A stretch of 64,000 nucleotides of DNA from Idiomarina aquatica (GTDB lineage: Bacteria > Pseudomonadota > Gammaproteobacteria > Enterobacterales > Alteromonadaceae). The stretch is from NCBI RefSeq assembly GCF_004362895.1, contig NZ_SNXI01000001.1:124001-188000 (forward strand), written 5' to 3'. A model generated the notes under the pieces. The model was given only the letters and a program-made list of their open reading frames with translations, was not told the origin of the DNA and ran no database searches. Made by a program: the position numbers and the translations under genes. The stretch's first letter is position 1. Each line of letters begins with the position of its first letter. Positions 15,435 through 26,316 of the stretch are shown here, in pieces.

Positions 15435-16712
15435 ATGAAAGTTAACAGCGCAGAGCAAGCACTGGAAATACTACAGGACAATGATGTCATTTGGTGCCAG
15501 TCAATGGCGGCGACTCCTTATAAGTTGCTTGAGGGATTGAAAAACGTTGCGGTTTCGCGCCAGAACTTAACCTTATTGCAGTTACATACAGAATACAGCG
15601 AACCCTTGAATGATCCCGCTTTAAAGGGCCACTTGCGCCAACGTGCATTTTTTGTTGGGGCGTCTACCCGCAAAGCGGTCAACGACGGCTTAGCCGATTA
15701 TGTACCGATTTTTCTGTCCGAAATACCGAAATTATTTCGCTCAGGGGAGCAACCGTTAAACGCGGCGATTATTCAAGTTTCACCACCAGACAAGCATGGT
15801 AACTGTAGCCTGGGAATTTCGGTCGAAGCAACGCGGGCAGCGCTGCAAGTCGCTGAAAAAGTGATTGCCTGGGTTAACCCCAAAATGCCACGTACACATG
15901 GTGACGCGTTAGTTCCGTTAAGCCGTTTTGATCGTTACTTTGTCGAAGAAGCTGAGTTACCTTTGCACCAGCAGCCGCCGCAAAATGAAACCACTAAAAA
16001 AATTGGCGAACAGGTGGCGAGCCTTATAGACGATGGTGATTGTCTGCAAATGGGGATAGGGGCGATACCCGATGCCACATTAGGCTGCCTGGGTAACCAT
16101 AAGGACTTGGGTATTCACACCGAGATGTTCTCGGATGGAGTATTACCGCTGGTAGAAAGTGGTGTTATTAATAACTCGCGTAAGCGCAAGCATCGCGGCC
16201 GAATCGTGACAACCTTTGCCATGGGATCGCAGCGTCTGTACGATTTTGTCGACGATAACCAAGAGGTGTTCTTTTTGGATGTTGAGTACACCAACGATAC
16301 CTCGGTGATTCGGCAAAATAAGCAGGTTATGTCGATTAACAGCGCCCTGCAGGTTGATTTAAGTGGTCAGGTTTGTGCTGATTCAATCGGTACCAAGATC
16401 TATTCTGGTGTGGGCGGGCAGATGGACTTTGTTCGCGGGGCAAGCCTTTCGGAGGGCGGCCGTTCAGTTATCGCCTTGCCATCGACAGCCTGTGGCGGAA
16501 CGGTTTCCCGTATCAGTTCGTTACTGGCACCCGGCGCCGGCGTAGTAACGACGCGCGCCCATGTGCATTATATTGTCACCGAACATGGCATCGCGAATTT
16601 ACGTGCCAGAAGCATGACTGAGCGCGCCCGCGCACTAATCGACATCGCTGCGCCACAGTTTCGTGAACAGCTTGCACGCGAAGCATACAACGATTGGGGG
16701 CTTACGGTTTAG
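15435..16712 (+). CDS. Acetyl-CoA hydrolase/transferase family protein
   Basis: 425 residues of CoA-transferase family I, closest in layout to 4-hydroxybutyrate CoA-transferase-like enzymes. Visible blocks: NAAIIQVSPPDKHGNCSLG, LQMGIGAIPDATL, HTEMFSDGVLPL, VEYTND (Glu likely the thioester-forming residue), SGVGGQMDFVRGA and HYIVTEHGIANLRARS. These enzymes swap CoA between acyl groups, usually with acetyl-CoA. Cytosolic. The actual acid used cannot be read. The 3' end overlaps the binding-protein gene on the other strand by 11 bases. Confidence 0.85.
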   Translation: MKVNSAEQALEILQDNDVIWCQSMAATPYKLLEGLKNVAVSRQNLTLLQLHTEYSEPLNDPALKGHLRQRAFFVGASTRKAVNDGLADYVPIFLSEIPKLFRSGEQPLNAAIIQVSPPDKHGNCSLGISVEATRAALQVAEKVIAWVNPKMPRTHGDALVPLSRFDRYFVEEAELPLHQQPPQNETTKKIGEQVASLIDDGDCLQMGIGAIPDATLGCLGNHKDLGIHTEMFSDGVLPLVESGVINNSRKRKHRGRIVTTFAMGSQRLYDFVDDNQEVFFLDVEYTNDTSVIRQNKQVMSINSALQVDLSGQVCADSIGTKIYSGVGGQMDFVRGASLSEGGRSVIALPSTACGGTVSRISSLLAPGAGVVTTRAHVHYIVTEHGIANLRARSMTERARALIDIAAPQFREQLAREAYNDWGLTV

Positions 16713-17556
16713 GCCGTTGCTCACCCAGCCACTGGTCCAGCGCTTGCTGAAAGCGAGCGTTGGCCTGCAGCCGCTCAACAGCACTATTAAGGTGTTCAGC
16801 AGCGCGTTTGCCCCAGTCGTTATTACTGCAGCCAATGGCGCCTTCGATAACCTTACCCTGATATTCCGCTATCGGTAAAAACACCAACTGTTCGTCGGTT
16901 TCATTGACTTGGTCGGCTTCATAAAATCGTTTAATCATCTCGTAATCAACGGTGTAATCGACACGGTGATTCAACATCATGGTCATTAAATTAACGTGGG
17001 CGTTATCCCCGGTTACGATACGGTAATGTGATTTGCCAATAAGATGTTTTTCGACCAACGGTTGCAGCTCGCCGTAGCGACGCTCTATAGGCTGTGCAAA
17101 CCGAAAGCGACTATCCTGCACTAAAGCCTCAAAGGAAACCGGGTTACCGTAGCGATCAGTAATTTTTTTAGCGGCGTTGGCATGCGCAACGATACCATGC
17201 GGCGGATAGCTGTGTGTGGTATCGGTATAGTTAAACTCGGCGTTGTAGCTGGAACGTTTGATTAGACAGGGGAAGCACAAATTGCGTTCGCGTTTCATTA
17301 ACAGGGTGATACGGCGCGCGGGTAATTGACGAATTTGTTGCTGTAGCTCGGACAGTTCTTGTTTCATAACATCGACTAATACGTCGCAGATACCTTCTCC
17401 CTGATAGTCGCCCTGTGAAATATGAAACGGTGGTGAGGTGTTAACTCCCCAAATAATATCTGCCGGGTCATCTTCTGCCTGAACTTGCTGCATGGCCTGA
17501 CCAATTGCAATAGCAGACCAAAAAGCAATTAGCATGAGCATCTTACAGCTTTTCAT
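16702..17556 (-). CDS. Periplasmic amino-acid-type binding protein, copy B
   Basis: About 284 residues with a signal peptide (cleavage near MQQVQAED) and a family-3 solute-binding-like fold starting IIWGVNTSPPFHI. Start fixed by a strong GGGAGGTG before ATG 17556; the longer open frame runs into the neighbouring gene. It shares the unusual block LCFPCLIKRSSYN with its upstream neighbour (copy A), as well as DT-x3-YPPHGI, RVDYTVDY, PI-EYQ-K and IGAIGC-type blocks, so the two arose by tandem duplication. No permease or kinase gene adjoins, so an orphan sensor or scavenging role is possible. It resembles the uncharacterised TIGR02285 group. Confidence 0.8.
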   Translation of the reverse strand: MKSCKMLMLIAFWSAIAIGQAMQQVQAEDDPADIIWGVNTSPPFHISQGDYQGEGICDVLVDVMKQELSELQQQIRQLPARRITLLMKRERNLCFPCLIKRSSYNAEFNYTDTTHSYPPHGIVAHANAAKKITDRYGNPVSFEALVQDSRFRFAQPIERRYGELQPLVEKHLIGKSHYRIVTGDNAHVNLMTMMLNHRVDYTVDYEMIKRFYEADQVNETDEQLVFLPIAEYQGKVIEGAIGCSNNDWGKRAAEHLNSAVERLQANARFQQALDQWLGEQRPKP

Positions 17557-17590
17557 TTTCACCTCCCGTGAACGCGTCACAGTGATTGCG

Positions 17591-18445
17591 CTATTTGGGC
17601 CGATCCGTGCCCAACCAAAAATCGAGACTGCGATTAAATTCTTTATTCTGTTTAATTTTCGGCAAAACAGAATTAATGGCGTCGATAGCTTGTTTACCCC
17701 AGGGGGTTCTGGCGCAACCGATGGCACCGATTATAGGTTTTTGCTGGTATTCGGTAATCGGAATAAAGGTTAACTGGCTTTCTGCTGTGTTCACCGCGCC
17801 GAGTTGTTGATAGAGTTTTATCATCATCGGGTAATCGACTGTGTAATCAACTCGATCTGTCGCGATCATAGACAATAGGTTGTAGGTCGCATTGTTACCA
17901 AATACGTCCTGATATTTGTCAGTATCAATCAGGTGCTCTTCTAAAATGGGCTGAATATCACCGTATTTACGCCCACTGGGTTGAGCAAAACGTAGCTCGG
18001 TTTGGCTGGCTATATCGGCAAAACTAATTTGCTCACCAAACTGTTGGCGTAATTGTTCGGCTACTGATTTACGCGTGATAATTCCATGCGGGGGATAAAG
18101 ATTAACTGTGTCACTAAAATAGTAATCAGGATTATACGAGCTGCGCTTTATTAAACAGGGAAAGCAAAGGTTCTGTTCTCGCTTCATTAAGCGACGAATA
18201 CGTATCTGCGGTAACCGGCTAACTTCGATTGTGTAGTCGGGTAGTTGCTGTGATACGGTTTCAACTAGTGCATCACAGAAGCCGGCCGGTATCTGCTGCT
18301 TTTGCTGCATCGAGTCGGGAATATGAAAAGGCGGCGCGGCGTTTACACCAAAACGAATGTCGGGATCCTGAGCAATGGCTGTATCCAAGGGTAATACAGC
18401 CCCCAAAAGGATTAATAATACAGTGACAAGCCGTGCTACTATCAA
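17591..18445 (-). CDS. Periplasmic amino-acid-type binding protein, copy A
   Basis: 284 residues, paralogue of the next gene (34 bases apart). Signal peptide ends near TAIAQ; mature part starts IRFGVNAAPPFHIP. The shared block LCFPCLIKRSSYN with two Cys, YPPHGI and RVDYTVDY define the pair. The start appears to be TTG at 18445, with GGTGGA five bases upstream; there is no earlier ATG in frame. Function as for copy B: binds an unknown small solute in the periplasm. Codon use looks like that of its neighbours. Confidence 0.78.
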   Translation of the reverse strand: MIVARLVTVLLILLGAVLPLDTAIAQDPDIRFGVNAAPPFHIPDSMQQKQQIPAGFCDALVETVSQQLPDYTIEVSRLPQIRIRRLMKREQNLCFPCLIKRSSYNPDYYFSDTVNLYPPHGIITRKSVAEQLRQQFGEQISFADIASQTELRFAQPSGRKYGDIQPILEEHLIDTDKYQDVFGNNATYNLLSMIATDRVDYTVDYPMMIKLYQQLGAVNTAESQLTFIPITEYQQKPIIGAIGCARTPWGKQAIDAINSVLPKIKQNKEFNRSLDFWLGTDRPK

Positions 18446-18541: not shown

Positions 18542-19063
18542 ATGCACGTTATTTTTAATCACGGAAAAGAAAGCGGTCCCTGGGGCACAAAAATAAAGCG
18601 TTTAGCTGAGGTCGCACAAAAACTTGGCTGTTCGGTCGAGAGCCTTGATTATGAAGGCGAATATGATGCTGATCAGCGCGTTAAACAATTACAGGCGCAT
18701 GTGCACGGCTGCTCCTCAGGTCCGTTATTACTCGTCGGCTCTAGTATGGGCGGTTACGTAGCAACAGCTGTTGCCGGTGCAATCGAATGCAGTGGATTGT
18801 TTGTAATGGCGCCTGCCTATTATCTTGGCGGATATACTAATCTCGATAACCTGAACCTGAGCTGTCCGGTTAGCATTATTCACGGCTGGCGCGACAACGT
18901 TGTGCCGGTGGAAAATAGCTGGCGCTTTGCCCAACCGATGAACGCGGATTTACATATTGTGAATGATGACCATCGACTGGTCGACACGTTAGACCATACG
19001 GCCGCAATTTTTGAGCGGTTTTTAAAGGATATTATGGCAGGAGAGCAATATGGCAGAGTTTGA
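18542..19063 (+). CDS. YqiA/YcfP-like alpha/beta hydrolase
   Basis: 173 residues, small cytosolic esterase-like protein. Opens MHVIFNHGKESGPWG; nucleophile elbow GSSMGG with Ser68; acid in HGWRDNVVP and His in DDHRL complete the triad. Belongs to the UPF0227/YqiA-type group of uncharacterised esterases. Its last 14 bases overlap the HIT gene, so the two are translated together. Confidence 0.82.
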   Translation: MHVIFNHGKESGPWGTKIKRLAEVAQKLGCSVESLDYEGEYDADQRVKQLQAHVHGCSSGPLLLVGSSMGGYVATAVAGAIECSGLFVMAPAYYLGGYTNLDNLNLSCPVSIIHGWRDNVVPVENSWRFAQPMNADLHIVNDDHRLVDTLDHTAAIFERFLKDIMAGEQYGRV

Positions 19064-19457
19064 ATTACATCCGCAATTAGCTAAGGATAGTTTGCATCTG
19101 GCTGATTGGCCGTTGTCCCAGGTTAGAGTCATAAACGATGCGAATTTTCCGTGGTTTTTATTAGTACCACGCATCCCAAATATCATTGAAGTCATTGATT
19201 TAAGCGAGAACGACCAGCAGCAACTGTGGCGGGAAAGTGCTTTTTTAAATCACTGGCTAAAAGCCGAGTATCGGCCTGATAAATTAAACCTTGCTGCCAT
19301 CGGCAACAAGGTTCCGCAATTACATCTGCACCACATTGCCCGTTATACCGATGACCCAGCATGGCCTGACCCTGTCTGGGGTAGGTTGCCGCCACAGCCG
19401 CTTGCTGAGCAGGAAGTTGTGCGGCTGCAGCAGGTGTTTCGTGAGTTAACGCTTTAA
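19050..19457 (+). CDS. HIT-domain protein
   Basis: 135 residues with the histidine-triad signature as QLHLHHIAR, preceded by NLAAIGNKVP, as in other HIT hydrolases acting on nucleotide phosphoesters. Also VPRIPNIIEVIDL near the N-terminus, typical of the short bacterial HIT subgroup. Start ATG overlaps the upstream hydrolase gene and has GGAG before it. Substrate unknown. Confidence 0.87.
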   Translation: MAEFELHPQLAKDSLHLADWPLSQVRVINDANFPWFLLVPRIPNIIEVIDLSENDQQQLWRESAFLNHWLKAEYRPDKLNLAAIGNKVPQLHLHHIARYTDDPAWPDPVWGRLPPQPLAEQEVVRLQQVFRELTL

Positions 19458-19534: not shown

Positions 19535-20113
19535 ATGGAAAATTTATCGTTACTTGCATTATTGCGTCAACAGACCGCGGCTAAACACCGACAAGTCGAG
19601 CAACAAGCGCCAATTAGCGCATTGATGTCAGCGGATCTTGATGATGACGGTTATCTGGATGCACTTTTTGTGTTGCATGATTTCGTGGCGTCTGCCGAGC
19701 GTAGCTTACAGCATCATTTTGGTGATCAATCCAGTGGCACTTATTACTACATGCCAAGGCTACGCGAAATCATTCGGGATATTCATCAGCTTCAGGGGAT
19801 TACGCCAACTTATCAGCCGGCAACGGTGGAGCCCTGCTTCTATCGCGCTATTGGCATAGCGTACGTGATAGAGGGCTCAACAGCCGGCGGTAAAATATTA
19901 GCGAAAAGACTAGCGCGCCAACTGCGTCGTGATCGAAACTCAGGACTTGCGTATTTTAACTTTCACCGCCGCGGAACCTGGTCATTGTTTCAACGTTGGT
20001 TAGAAACAGTGCAATTGAACGCAAGCCAGCGACAACGGTGTATCAGTGGCGCAATGGATGGTTTTGATACATTATTAGCGCAGCATTCTATCTATCAACA
20101 ACAAAGTTGCTAA
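19535..20113 (+). CDS. bphO: Biliverdin-producing heme oxygenase
   Basis: 192 residues. His18 in TAAKHRQVE fits the proximal heme ligand, and GIAYVIEGSTAGGKIL is the distal-helix signature of bacteriophytochrome-associated heme oxygenases. The enzyme opens heme to biliverdin, CO and iron. The phytochrome gene starts ten bases after its stop, so the two form one unit supplying chromophore to photoreceptor. Symbol given by this context. Confidence 0.9.
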   Translation: MENLSLLALLRQQTAAKHRQVEQQAPISALMSADLDDDGYLDALFVLHDFVASAERSLQHHFGDQSSGTYYYMPRLREIIRDIHQLQGITPTYQPATVEPCFYRAIGIAYVIEGSTAGGKILAKRLARQLRRDRNSGLAYFNFHRRGTWSLFQRWLETVQLNASQRQRCISGAMDGFDTLLAQHSIYQQQSC

Positions 20114-22208: not shown

Positions 22209-22247
22209 TTTGCAAATAGTCATCTATATTAGAATAAAGGACGCTAA

Positions 22248-23237
22248 GTGAGCTTATCTCAGGCAATGCTGGCGGTGGCCGAAGTCGCAGGCCGTCTCGC
22301 TTACACAAGCGAAGCCGTTGGTGTATTAAAGGTTAAACTTGAGCAAACAACACCCATTAATTCGCTAAGGGAAGACTTTTTGCGCGCCAGCCTTGCTATT
22401 GATTCGTTAGGTGAGCCGCAAGTCATAAGCACGCTAGTATCGTTATTTGATCGTGTCGCAAGTCTCTCCACTAACGATGAAAGAGCATTACGGCAACTGC
22501 ATGCGCAGCTGCTCCAGCCCGCAACTGATGCCGGGCATTATCGTAGTACTGGCATGGGGGTTTATCGGCAAAACCGACTGGTGCATATGACAGCTCCGGC
22601 CAATCAAATTTCTAAAATGCTGCGTCAGCGCCTGCATGCCAATAGCGATGTCCGCCACCACCCGTTGCTAAATGCCGCCAACACCCTGTTTGATCTGGAG
22701 TTTATCCAGCCATTTGCACGCGCTAACGGCGTCATTGCAAGATTATGGATAAAAGCGATTTTGCATCAATGGCATCCTTTTTTGTTGGAAATTCCATTTG
22801 AGCAGTGTGTTAAAAACGACCAAGCGCAGTACTATGAATGCTTAAAACAAGCGATAGCTGATAATGACAATAGCCGTTTTATTGATTTTGTCCTGCAGTT
22901 AATCGGGCAGGCAGTTGAACAGCTTACCGAGCAATTACCGAACAAAGAAGAAAGGGTAAGTTCGGAAAAGAATCGCAGCAATACCTCCGAATTGGAGGGC
23001 TTTATAGGTTCGGAAAAAATCTCTACCCGCGAGAAACTGCTGCATTTACTGGAACAGCAACCCGACTGGAGCGCCGCGCGCGCAGCAGAGGTACTGGGGA
23101 TTTCATCGCGCGCGGTAGAAAAACATTTATCTCGGTTAAAACGGGATGGTTTGTTAGAGCGTCAGGGCTCGGCACGGGCAGGGCGCTGGATTGTCACCCG
23201 CCCAACGTCCCGGCAGCTGTCTCTACCGGAATACTGA
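22248..23237 (+). CDS. Fic-fold protein with degenerate active site plus winged helix
   Basis: 329 residues. Residues ~90-210 have the Fic layout: GHYRSTGMGVY beta flap, HHPLLNAANTLFDLEF helix and a motif at 154-165 reading QPFARANGVIAR where active Fic enzymes have HPFxxGNGRxxR. Catalytic His is Gln, the metal-binding acid is Arg, and a key Gly and Arg are lost, so AMP transfer is improbable. Residues ~262-320 form a winged helix-turn-helix (AAEVLGISSRAVEKHLSRL). GTG start with AAAGGA upstream, 39 bases after the phytochrome gene. Likely a DNA-binding regulator built on a dead Fic fold; link to light signalling is inference. Confidence 0.82.
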   Translation: MSLSQAMLAVAEVAGRLAYTSEAVGVLKVKLEQTTPINSLREDFLRASLAIDSLGEPQVISTLVSLFDRVASLSTNDERALRQLHAQLLQPATDAGHYRSTGMGVYRQNRLVHMTAPANQISKMLRQRLHANSDVRHHPLLNAANTLFDLEFIQPFARANGVIARLWIKAILHQWHPFLLEIPFEQCVKNDQAQYYECLKQAIADNDNSRFIDFVLQLIGQAVEQLTEQLPNKEERVSSEKNRSNTSELEGFIGSEKISTREKLLHLLEQQPDWSAARAAEVLGISSRAVEKHLSRLKRDGLLERQGSARAGRWIVTRPTSRQLSLPEY

Positions 23238-24561
23238 ACCGCGCATTAATTTTTTGTGCGAGCGCCGCTTGCGCGTCTGGTTCACCATGAATCAACCGCA
23301 CCTGCTTTACCCCACCGTTGGCGCTGCCAATAAAATCCAGCAGCTCGGCCTGGTCTGCATGGGCAGAATATCCGCCTAACGTATGTATTGCTGCCTTGAT
23401 CGTTATTTTCTCTCCATCCAACACAACGTAACCACCGGTTGGGCCGTATTGTTGAATATCCCTGCCGGGCGTACCCTGTGCCTGAAAGCCAACAAAAAGC
23501 ACATCGGTTCGCGCATCGGGTAACAGCGCTTTCAGGTAGTTGACCATACGCCCGCCGGCGCACATGCCACTGGCGGCAATAATAATGACCGGCTCAGCCG
23601 TAGATGCCAGTCGGTTGACCAATGCCTGGTGCTGATCGTGATCCCGAATCACATGGCAATGTTCAAACGATAATGGGTGGCGACCATTGCTAAGCCGTTG
23701 TTTTGCTTCTTCGTCCCACAGCTCATGTAATTCGCTATAGAGTTCGGTTAATTCGCTAGCCAGGGGCGAATCTACAACAATTTCAGGGAAGTGTTGATGT
23801 CCTGCGCTGGCTAGCTCGTGCCAAATCTGTTCAAATTCATAGAGCAACTCCTGGGTTCTGCCCATACTGAACGCAGGTATCAGTACCGCACCCCGATCCT
23901 CAATACAGCGGTTAATAATCTGTTTAAGGCGTTGCTTTCGTTGTTCACGAGACTCATGCAAACGGTCACCGTAGGTACTTTCTAATAGCAGCAAATCAGC
24001 GTGTTCTAACGGCGCAGGATCAGGTAAAAGCGGGGTGTTTTTGCAACCGATGTCGCCACTGAAAACAATGCGTTGTGTCGGGGTATCCATCTCGATAAAC
24101 GCCGAGCCCATAATGTGACCCGCATTCTTAAACCGTATCCGGCAATTATCTGATAACGTCAGCCAATGGTCATAATCAACCGGTTGCAGTTGCCGGCCGA
24201 GCCGGGCTAGCACGGCCTCCACCAATTCAGGGTTGCGGCTAATACCGACTTTAACCGCATCCGCTAATACCAGCGGCAACAACTTTGCGGTTGCTGAGGT
24301 ACAAATGACAGGACCTTTGTAACCTGCAGCGAACAAATAAGGTAAACGGCCAATGTGGTCAAGGTGACAGTGTGTTATCAGGACAGCGTTTAAACCAGCT
24401 AACGAAAGGTTAATACCGAAGTGTTCGTCATCAACATCAGTCGTTACGTCCTCGCCCTGAGCTAATCCACAGTCAATTAAATAGTGCTCGTGGTCCGATA
24501 ACAGTATTTCGTGACAAGAGCCCGTTACTTGATTAAACCCGCCATGGTGGATAATGTTCAT
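23194..24561 (-). CDS. Metallo-beta-lactamase/beta-CASP hydrolase (RNA-specificity type)
   Basis: About 455 residues. Metal-binding HCHLDHIG, GHIMGSAF, FSGDIG and SAHADQ motifs define the beta-lactamase fold with an inserted beta-CASP domain (IPAFSMGRTQELLYEF, SGMCAGGRM) and a C-terminal RMMBL segment. This is the YSH1/CPSF73-like bacterial group, a predicted nuclease acting on RNA. ATG 24561 is preceded by AAGG; a GTG eight codons upstream is less likely. It converges on the Fic-like gene with a 44-base overlap. Confidence 0.88.
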   Translation of the reverse strand: MNIIHHGGFNQVTGSCHEILLSDHEHYLIDCGLAQGEDVTTDVDDEHFGINLSLAGLNAVLITHCHLDHIGRLPYLFAAGYKGPVICTSATAKLLPLVLADAVKVGISRNPELVEAVLARLGRQLQPVDYDHWLTLSDNCRIRFKNAGHIMGSAFIEMDTPTQRIVFSGDIGCKNTPLLPDPAPLEHADLLLLESTYGDRLHESREQRKQRLKQIINRCIEDRGAVLIPAFSMGRTQELLYEFEQIWHELASAGHQHFPEIVVDSPLASELTELYSELHELWDEEAKQRLSNGRHPLSFEHCHVIRDHDQHQALVNRLASTAEPVIIIAASGMCAGGRMVNYLKALLPDARTDVLFVGFQAQGTPGRDIQQYGPTGGYVVLDGEKITIKAAIHTLGGYSAHADQAELLDFIGSANGGVKQVRLIHGEPDAQAALAQKINARFSIPVETAAGTLGG

Positions 24562-24672
24562 TAAAGACCTTATTAAATGAAACACCTTAAGATTGTGCTA
24601 ATGTTGCATAGAGATTATCGCCTTAGCAATACGAAATAATGGACATTGTTGGTGCGACAAAGGAGCGTAGAC

Positions 24673-26316
24673 ATGCACGTCAGTTATATCCCACTGTATT
24701 ATTTGATAGGCGCAATCGCTGCACTCTTTTTCGCTATTTTATTACCCGGTTGGCCGCTAAAAGTCGTATTTAGCTGGATTTTTATTGCCTTGGCCATGAT
24801 CGCATCAGCTTATTGGCTTAATATGGCCAGCGTGTTTCGCAAACGTGAGGGCGGTCAGATACCGGTTTATATTCGCTGGCTTCTCATTCCCTTTTTACTC
24901 GGTGTGCGAATTTACAATGCAGTGGCCCGAAAACGCGATGGTCTTGCCGGTTGGCACCAGGTCGGAGAACGTCTTTATGTAGGCCGGCGGCTGTTCGGTA
25001 GTGATATTGACGCGTTAAAGCAGCAGGGCATTACTGCTATTTTAGACGTTACAGCCGAATTTGATGCACTTGACTGGTCCTCGGAAAGTGCAGATATCCA
25101 TTATTTGAATATTCCGGTGCTCGACCATAAAGCGCCTTCCGAACAGCAAATTCACCAAGCCATTCAGTGGATACAACAACAGCAGCAGAGCCAGCGCAAT
25201 GTGCTTGTGCATTGTGCACTTGGCCGGGGCCGTTCGGTGTTTATGGCGGCGGCATACCTGTTAGCCAGAACAAAAACCAGGAACGTCGATGAGATACTCG
25301 AACAAATTCAGGCTGAACGCCATGTGGCACGCTTGAATTCGGTGCAACATGAACAATTAAAGGCATTTGCACAAGATAACCTCATGTTGTTGGCGAAAAC
25401 TGCCTGGATTATCGCAAATCCGGTTTCCGGCGGTGGTAAATGGAAGGAATGTCAGCAGGATATAAAAAACCTGCTACAGCCCTATTTTGAACTGGAAATA
25501 TTAGAGACTACCGAGCAGGTCGGGGCACAACAGTTGGCCAGGCAGGCACTGGATGCTGACGCAGAATTAATTATCGCCTGTGGGGGCGACGGCACGCTAA
25601 CTGCGGTGGCTAGCGAGGTTAAAAACTCTGACACAGTAATGGCTATCATTCCTATGGGAACCGCCAACTCGTTAAGTCAGGCACTGTGGGGGATGAGTTC
25701 AAAGATAAGTCCGGTAACGGCAGCCTGCACGACGATTATTGAAGGCCGTAGCCGGGCGATTGACGTTGGCGACGTTAATGGCCGCACCATGTTGCTATGC
25801 GCAGCAATCGGGTTTGAACAGCAAATGATCGAAAAGGCTGATCGCGATGCCAAAAATAAGCTGGGTCAATTGGCATACTTGCAGGGGCTTTGGCGTGCCT
25901 GCAACGAAAACCAAATACTGGACTTATGCGTTACGCTCGATGATGATGAGCCGCAACACTGGCAAACCAGTAGTCTGATTATTGCTAATGCAGCGCCAAT
26001 AACTACGCTGTTAGCACAGGGCAAGGGCAGCCCCATGATCGATGATGGCAAGCTGGATCTGACCTGGCTAGAGCCACAGGAAAGCGGTAACCAGCACGTC
26101 CTGAGTTTAATCGAATTACTTTACTCCGGGCTGACTGAAGATAACCCGGGTATTAATACCGGTTACACCCAGGCATGTAGTGTTAAGGTAAAACATCAAC
26201 AAGGGGAAGCGCTAAAATATGTGGTCGACGGCGAACCCTACGAAGCGAATGAATTAATGGTGAGGTTGCAAAAAAGGGCGCTTAACATATTGATTCCAGA
26301 ACAGGCTGATTACTAA
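24673..26316 (+). CDS. Fusion of dual-specificity phosphatase and lipid-kinase domains
   Basis: 547 residues. Two N-terminal membrane helices, then a cysteine phosphatase domain (~85-240) with Cys181 and Arg187 in HCALGRGRS, then a diacylglycerol-kinase catalytic domain (~245-545) with ANPVSGGGKW, CGGDGTL near 303, PMGTANSLSQAL and VVDGEPYEANELMV. Both halves look intact. It sits at the inner membrane and could dephosphorylate and phosphorylate lipids or phosphoinositide-like heads. Start set by AGGAG before ATG 24673. Similar fusions occur in proteobacteria with no clear role. Confidence 0.88.
   Translation: MHVSYIPLYYLIGAIAALFFAILLPGWPLKVVFSWIFIALAMIASAYWLNMASVFRKREGGQIPVYIRWLLIPFLLGVRIYNAVARKRDGLAGWHQVGERLYVGRRLFGSDIDALKQQGITAILDVTAEFDALDWSSESADIHYLNIPVLDHKAPSEQQIHQAIQWIQQQQQSQRNVLVHCALGRGRSVFMAAAYLLARTKTRNVDEILEQIQAERHVARLNSVQHEQLKAFAQDNLMLLAKTAWIIANPVSGGGKWKECQQDIKNLLQPYFELEILETTEQVGAQQLARQALDADAELIIACGGDGTLTAVASEVKNSDTVMAIIPMGTANSLSQALWGMSSKISPVTAACTTIIEGRSRAIDVGDVNGRTMLLCAAIGFEQQMIEKADRDAKNKLGQLAYLQGLWRACNENQILDLCVTLDDDEPQHWQTSSLIIANAAPITTLLAQGKGSPMIDDGKLDLTWLEPQESGNQHVLSLIELLYSGLTEDNPGINTGYTQACSVKVKHQQGEALKYVVDGEPYEANELMVRLQKRALNILIPEQADY

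Follow-up and report, generated by a model that had tools for sequence, protein, structure and literature searches.

Several described proteins join a Fic domain to a C-terminal DNA-binding domain. CccR of Yersinia pseudotuberculosis, which consists of Fic followed by a helix-turn-helix (HTH), is a secreted protein whose Fic motif is intact and which AMPylates FtsZ; it also represses its own promoter via the HTH domain, and a mutant in the catalytic His still restores repression (accessible text of PMC9755527). A Fic core with a C-terminal winged helix is likewise present in 4rgl (Dde_2494), in SoFic (3eqx and 3zcn; the accessible account has the structure solved with ATP) and in CbFic2 of Coxiella (8cil), the latter two being treated in PMC10628234. 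According to the available part of that paper, the winged helix of CbFic2 binds DNA, possibly without sequence preference, DNA induces dimerisation, and the protein AMPylates histone H3. Fic folds that have lost motif residues are found among the Bartonella Fic effectors, which are targeted to the host and carry a BID domain, no winged helix being described in the accessible text of PMC8401265. Two further systems bear on the present locus: the Fic proteins of type I restriction operons (gene order hsdM-hsdS-fic-hsdR), and PadC, a photoreceptor with a well-studied structure, whose phytochrome-GGDEF architecture is known from IsPadC of Idiomarina sp. A28L (5llw, 6et7).

Here we analyse a gene for a Fic-like protein, termed pseudo-Fic, that lies directly downstream of a padC-type gene in a 64,000-nucleotide stretch of DNA from Idiomarina aquatica (contig NZ_SNXI01000001.1; hereafter the window). 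The features of the locus are collected in Table 1; the Shine-Dalgarno-like AAAGGA listed there also precedes the GTG codon in the Idiomarina aquatica orthologue.

Table 1. Features of the pseudo-Fic locus (positions are those of the window unless a locus is named)
Feature	Position	Strand	Basis and remarks
UPF0227-like hydrolase, syntenic upstream neighbour	18542..19063	+	Pfam, synteny
HIT-domain protein, syntenic upstream neighbour	19050..19457	+	Pfam, synteny
Heme oxygenase	19535..20113	+	Pfam; directly 5' of PadC in 9/9 PadC genomes
padC-type gene, PAS-GAF-PHY phytochrome and GGDEF diguanylate cyclase, 694 aa	20124..22208	+	Pfam, IsPadC match
Shine-Dalgarno-like AAAGGA	22236..22241	+	6 bases 5' of GTG; by eye
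Pseudo-Fic winged-helix protein gene	22248..23237	+	329 aa, GTG start; orthologues in 17/19 genus genomes
Fic-fold core	22434..22931	+	residues 63-228; Pfam 77-172, AlphaFold2, 4rgl best structural match
Degenerate Fic motif QPFARANGVIAR	22707..22742	+	residues 154-165; replaces HPFx(D/E)GNGRxxR
Linker, mostly disordered, fast-evolving	22932..23015	+	residues 229-256; pLDDT <50 at 236-255
Winged-helix DNA-binding domain (predicted)	23016..23195	+	residues 257-316; HTH_11, HTH_24; many invariant columns; dN/dS
C-terminal tail QLSLPEY, short motif resembling beta-clamp-binding motifs	23214..23234	+	conservation, low pLDDT
44-bp tail-to-tail overlap with antisense beta-CASP metallo-hydrolase gene (23194-24585, -)	23194..23237		
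PadC remnant	L064:8619-8750; L065:8467-8592		directly upstream of pseudo-Fic

The two-domain plan of CccR, an N-terminal Fic domain and a C-terminal HTH, is present in pseudo-Fic by both Pfam and AlphaFold2, in agreement with the sequence-only reading of this DNA, which had the Fic fold and a C-terminal DNA-binding helix retained. Fic profile PF02661 scores 46.7 bits over residues 77-172 (cut-off 24). At about residues 258-313 several HTH families match, two of them barely exceeding their cut-offs (HTH_11, 25.2 against 25; HTH_24, 24.6 against 21.9). The AlphaFold2 model, built from 27 sequences (mean pLDDT 86, pTM 0.68), is confident in the Fic core and the winged helix. Its structural neighbours are Fic proteins, headed by 4rgl (Foldseek E 5e-15), and the Fic-winged-helix structures 4rgl, 3eqx and 8cil are among the best matches. 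The alignment with 4rgl has Z 29.3 and rmsd 13.3 over 287 residues, a high value that presumably reflects a different arrangement of the two domains; for SoFic, the alignment covers the Fic part of the model, with Z 25.0 and rmsd 2.9 over 224 residues.

While the fold of an active Fic AMP transferase is present, its catalytic His, the metal-binding acid (in the window) and the GNGR anion hole are not. The motif that reads HPFADGNGRMGR in 4rgl is the degenerate QPFARANGVIAR in pseudo-Fic: His is replaced by Gln, the acid by Arg, the first Gly by Ala and the Arg of GNGR by Val, such that A-N-G-V stands where active Fic proteins have GNGR; unchanged are Pro, Phe, Asn, the second Gly and the last Arg. 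Among the 17 aligned Idiomarina homologues, the catalytic position is Gln throughout and the GNGR Arg is always absent, but the acid position is still Glu in four, and the first Gly is kept in four and replaced by Ala in the other 13; the Asn persists in all 17 and the last Arg in 13. The loss of His, acid, Gly and Arg described earlier from the letters alone is therefore accurate for the window, but for the acid and the Gly it does not extend to the whole genus. The inhibitory helix motif (S/T)xxxE(G/N) is missing too: the window has ASLAIDSL, with Asp for Glu and no G/N after it, where relatives have for example SLAIEHN or TLEIEGN, and 20 aligned columns behind this helix are absent from the Idiomarina rows. 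Judged from these residues, the Idiomarina protein would be a Fic fold that is catalytically dead.

Among the 19 genomes of the genus Idiomarina that were searched, 17 carry the gene at the same locus, including I. aquatica, seosinensis, ramblicola, rhizosphaerae, abyssalis, zobellii, piscisalsi, fontislapidosi and baltica. In the two that lack it (G012 and G014) the HIT gene lies in a different neighbourhood, so that they are uninformative on loss at this locus; the sole match in G012 is weak and is to a different Fic protein (E 1e-7). Outside the genus, all 29 relatives compared keep the catalytic His and 28 of them a complete HPFxDGNGRxxR, the exception (L114) having GKER in place of GNGR. 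In a phylogenetic tree with these relatives the 17 Idiomarina proteins form one clade (support 100/98); the tree is midpoint-rooted and the program warns of long branches meeting, such that the exact sister of the clade is not fixed. Since the carriers form a single clade with Gln in 17 of 17, against His in 29 of 29 relatives, the active site was most likely lost once, before the sampled Idiomarina species split. A profile search of 395 genomes of the family found a match in 153, and the His is present at each of the best 13 loci outside Idiomarina. Scanning the order with a degenerate DNA pattern for QPF gave hits in 320 of 394 genomes, and the same pattern written backward, as a control, was found widely as well; the pattern is too unspecific, and the presence of such a pseudo-Fic outside Idiomarina is therefore judged from the best matches only. 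The scan of named genomes covered the best 80 of 116 relatives, many of which matched through the winged helix alone.

The relatives point to a likely source of the gene. By sequence, pseudo-Fic is related to restriction-operon Fic proteins, with which it shares the Fic core, the winged helix and a Ser/Lys-rich linker. A plasmid search returned 27 records with homologues, ten of them listed, and in five of the seven records examined (H1, H3, H6, H7 and H9) a type I restriction operon has the Fic gene between its hsdS and hsdR, though the operons of H7 and H9, both on IncC plasmids, resemble each other and can hardly count as independent cases. In H1 an AbiE pair also lies between hsdS and hsdR; H5 and H10 have no restriction operon in their annotated part. 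Among 15 named loci outside Idiomarina, with one neighbour scanned at each of ten, HsdR adjoins the Fic gene at four (L112, L114, L115 and L116), the neighbour is a fused methylase-specificity gene at L117 and a helicase-like protein without the HsdR N-terminal domain at L128, and it is unrelated to restriction systems at L118, L119, L122 and L126. On an Azotobacter salinestris plasmid (L188, 2170-5624), a single type I restriction operon has Fic family genes on either side of hsdS. These relatives, several of them in restriction operons, keep the catalytic His and end shortly after the winged helix, whereas the Idiomarina clade has lost the motif, carries a QLxL tail and occupies another kind of locus: the neighbours identified there are hydrolase, HIT, chemotaxis receptor, heme oxygenase, PadC and metallo-hydrolase genes, not hsdS or hsdR. 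Because plasmid relatives so often lie between hsdS and hsdR, it is likely, though not proven, that a restriction-linked Fic was domesticated at a chromosomal locus; the tree is not rooted inside the group.

Substitution patterns indicate purifying selection on the Fic domain and the winged helix. Nei-Gojobori counts for 14 chosen pairs (undefined values being saturated) gave dN/dS of 0.027 to 0.149 for the Fic domain in the ten pairs where it is defined, 0 to 0.255 for the winged helix in 13 of the pairs, and 0.19 to 1.36 for the linker over all 14, with three values above 1. In the six genomes that have neither PadC nor a remnant of it, the Fic domain gave 0.027 to 0.080 in four of five pairs, the fifth being saturated. 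By this measure pseudo-Fic is a working protein and, since the ratios are low without PadC, it does not work on account of PadC. The earlier reading had held that homologues with an intact HPFxxGNGR at the same locus would mark a strain-specific decay; the 17 Idiomarina carriers include none, and such decay is rejected by the missing His in all 17 together with the low dN/dS.

We hypothesize, with a probability of roughly 60%, that pseudo-Fic is a catalytically dead Fic-winged-helix regulator that acts by binding DNA, without AMP transfer. The loss of the active site, the retention of fold and winged helix, and the survival of the gene after PadC was lost together make it look like an enzyme turned into a non-enzymatic regulator. 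The proposed ancestor would be of the Fic-winged-helix type, whose relatives are often found in type I restriction operons, and would have been fixed chromosomally in an ancestor of Idiomarina. The winged helix is predicted to bind DNA, and the Fic domain, whose target-facing hairpin is recognisable in 13 of the 17 species, would serve as a folded scaffold for dimerisation and partner docking. Most likely pseudo-Fic regulates transcription locally, its own operon being a possible target; in genomes with PadC it is probably co-transcribed, and so co-produced, with heme oxygenase and PadC, but its core function would be independent of PadC. By analogy, the Idiomarina protein looks as if it had kept the transcription-factor half of a CccR-like protein and given up the enzyme. 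If so, the two activities united in CccR would here have been separated by nature, with a single origin and throughout the genus, and the case would illustrate a route from a restriction-linked Fic to a regulator. Binding without sequence preference, as the available text suggests for CbFic2 (PMC10628234), would weaken a promoter-specific role, and inspection by eye of the upstream regions found no palindrome common to all clades that could be an operator. One clade has an inverted repeat ahead of the start codon; since its loop varies in length, it is better taken for an RNA hairpin. The hairpin lies between a GGAG ribosome site and the ATG in six PadC-less genomes (L057, L058, L059, L061, L062 and L063) and consists of AGTAACC, a loop of 3 to 6 and GGTTACT, with small variations (for example L057:7731-7748, just before the pseudo-Fic start). 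It folds at -6.0 to -8.8 kcal/mol, with modest z-scores against shuffles (-0.8 to -2.4), and folding would set GGAG and ATG at a normal distance.

The link to light comes from the neighbourhood. The window PadC matches IsPadC along its length (439 bits) and shares its architecture but is clearly non-identical: IsPadC of A28L is a different orthologue, and the three Idiomarina PadC proteins compared all score below an identical sequence. Heme oxygenase, whose gene lies directly upstream, would supply the bilin chromophore. PadC is full-length in nine of the 19 genus genomes, and in all nine it stands directly 5' of pseudo-Fic on the same strand, with gaps of 39, 11, 19, 15, 12, 15 and 15 bp in seven and a stop codon overlapping the start codon in two (G003 and G017); the heme oxygenase-PadC-pseudo-Fic block is intact although flanking genes vary between genomes. 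The 39-bp spacing given in the earlier reading is thus borne out, and the pairing, which that reading proposed to look for in other Idiomarinaceae, recurs in every Idiomarina genome with a full-length PadC. Among the open-licence papers listed in literature searches, none concerns a Fic-like gene beside PadC; the word Fic occurs zero times in the PadC papers PMC9587094 and PMC6005682, and the accessible text of two PadC papers does not describe the genomic neighbours of PadC.

Eight of the 17 carriers, however, lack a full-length PadC and keep pseudo-Fic behind the hydrolase and HIT genes. At some of these loci an opposite-strand gene is inserted before pseudo-Fic, which encodes a chemotaxis receptor at the one locus scanned. 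By tblastn, G011 (zobellii) and G002 (piscisalsi) contain a PadC remnant directly 5' of an intact pseudo-Fic, in which PadC residues 516-529 (in the reading of G003) adjoin residue 687 onwards; the heme oxygenase survives as a 173-aa frame still matching Pfam in G011 and as fragments only in G002. These remnants are traces left behind by the loss of the phytochrome module. In the other six PadC-less carriers the sole PadC match by tblastn is at chance level and far from the gene (E 0.23 in G006). On the gene tree, the simplest history would be an ancestral heme oxygenase-PadC-pseudo-Fic block with two losses of PadC. Fic-domain dN/dS is 0.116 in the PadC-remnant pair against 0.062 in its PadC-bearing sister pair, which could reflect some relaxation after PadC was lost.

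Pseudo-Fic may instead be a dedicated output partner of PadC, reading light via c-di-GMP or via the conformation of PadC. The strict same-strand adjacency, at distances from 39 bp down to overlapping stop and start codons, and the cohesion of the three-gene block amid changing neighbours speak for this reading, and they make pseudo-Fic a candidate partner gene for PadC. The reading is nevertheless unlikely, as full-length PadC is missing from eight of the 17 carriers, two of these have only a remnant beside an intact pseudo-Fic, and selection is still strong in the six genomes without that remnant. Counted by presence and absence, pseudo-Fic accompanies PadC in 9 of 9 genomes and occurs in 8 of 10 without it (about 0.26 by hand count); this association is not significant, and hence the weight of the PadC link lies in the adjacency. 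The tie to light is a conserved operon-like neighbourhood with no obligate dependence: of the suggestion of a light- or c-di-GMP-linked regulator, the conserved link to PadC stands, and an obligatory role is not supported.

The C-terminus offers a further lead. The Idiomarina proteins extend some ten residues beyond the ends of their relatives, and in this extension, which has low pLDDT in the AlphaFold2 model, Q, L and L are invariant. The tail reads QLSLP in 13 and QLGLL in four of the 17, its codons changing synonymously. QLxL occurs within the last 12 residues of 17 of 17 pseudo-Fic proteins as against a single one of 313 further mechanical ORFs at these loci, a set that contains many mutual orthologues; none of the 29 relatives has Q[LM]x[LM] among its last 25 residues. 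An antisense gene overlaps the tail by 44 bp in seven carriers; the other ten lack the overlap and keep the motif, so that tail conservation is not a by-product of the antisense gene, an explanation that was considered and rejected. The antisense gene in the window (23194-24585, minus strand) encodes a protein of the beta-CASP metallo-beta-lactamase fold; the NCBIfam models that it matches best, type VII CRISPR Cas14 and aCPSF1, score far below their cut-offs.

The tail resembles a sliding-clamp-binding motif, and might dock pseudo-Fic on the DNA sliding clamp such that it acts at replication forks. According to the accessible text of PMC12309361, the binding consensus is commonly QL[S/D]LF, and Hda binds tightly with QLSLPL. 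The near-exclusive QLxL, its synonymous codon changes and the low pLDDT speak for such a role. We regard it as doubtful: positions 1, 2, 4 and mostly 3 of the tail match the consensus, but Pro or Leu stands at position 5 instead of Phe, and Glu, Gln or Ala at position 6, which leaves both the pentapeptide and the hexapeptide form incomplete. Gly at position 3, present in four of the 17 tails, weakens binding in E. coli (PMC12309361, same portion), and the Hda of the present genome has a different stretch, QLPLQV, near its N-terminus.

A changed chemistry, in which the pocket catalyses a different reaction independent of the Fic His, as the Fido protein AvrB probably does, is improbable. Asn160 and the Pro and Phe of the motif are invariant in all 17 Idiomarina proteins, the target-facing hairpin of Fic proteins is still recognisable in 13 of the 17 species, and the motif helix is strongly constrained in most close pairs. 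The varying acid, Gly and Arg positions, however, differ by clade, unlike a new shared active site, and many of the invariant residues are common to intact Fic proteins and look like scaffold. A composite of the other readings, in which a dead Fic of restriction origin sits on DNA as an adaptor, is tethered to the replication clamp by the QLSLP tail and shares its expression with a phytochrome cyclase, is a shade more improbable still; were it true, the light or c-di-GMP state could bear on replication or transcription at the fork. That the gene is a decaying pseudogene of a former Fic enzyme, as the lost active site and the fast divergence of the N-terminus and linker might suggest, can be set aside, given that the frame is open in all 17 genomes, that dN/dS outside the linker stays well below 1, and that the gene has a single origin and persists across the genus. 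Two further observations concern the surroundings of the gene. In the window, two tandem related genes (16702-17727 and 17591-18445, both on the minus strand) have no Pfam match at E 1e-4, and the sequence cluster to which they belong is represented by one or two copies at the locus in 17 of 17 genomes. Further downstream, window positions 24646-26316 (plus strand) encode a 556-aa fusion of a dual-specificity phosphatase domain with a diacylglycerol kinase-type domain.
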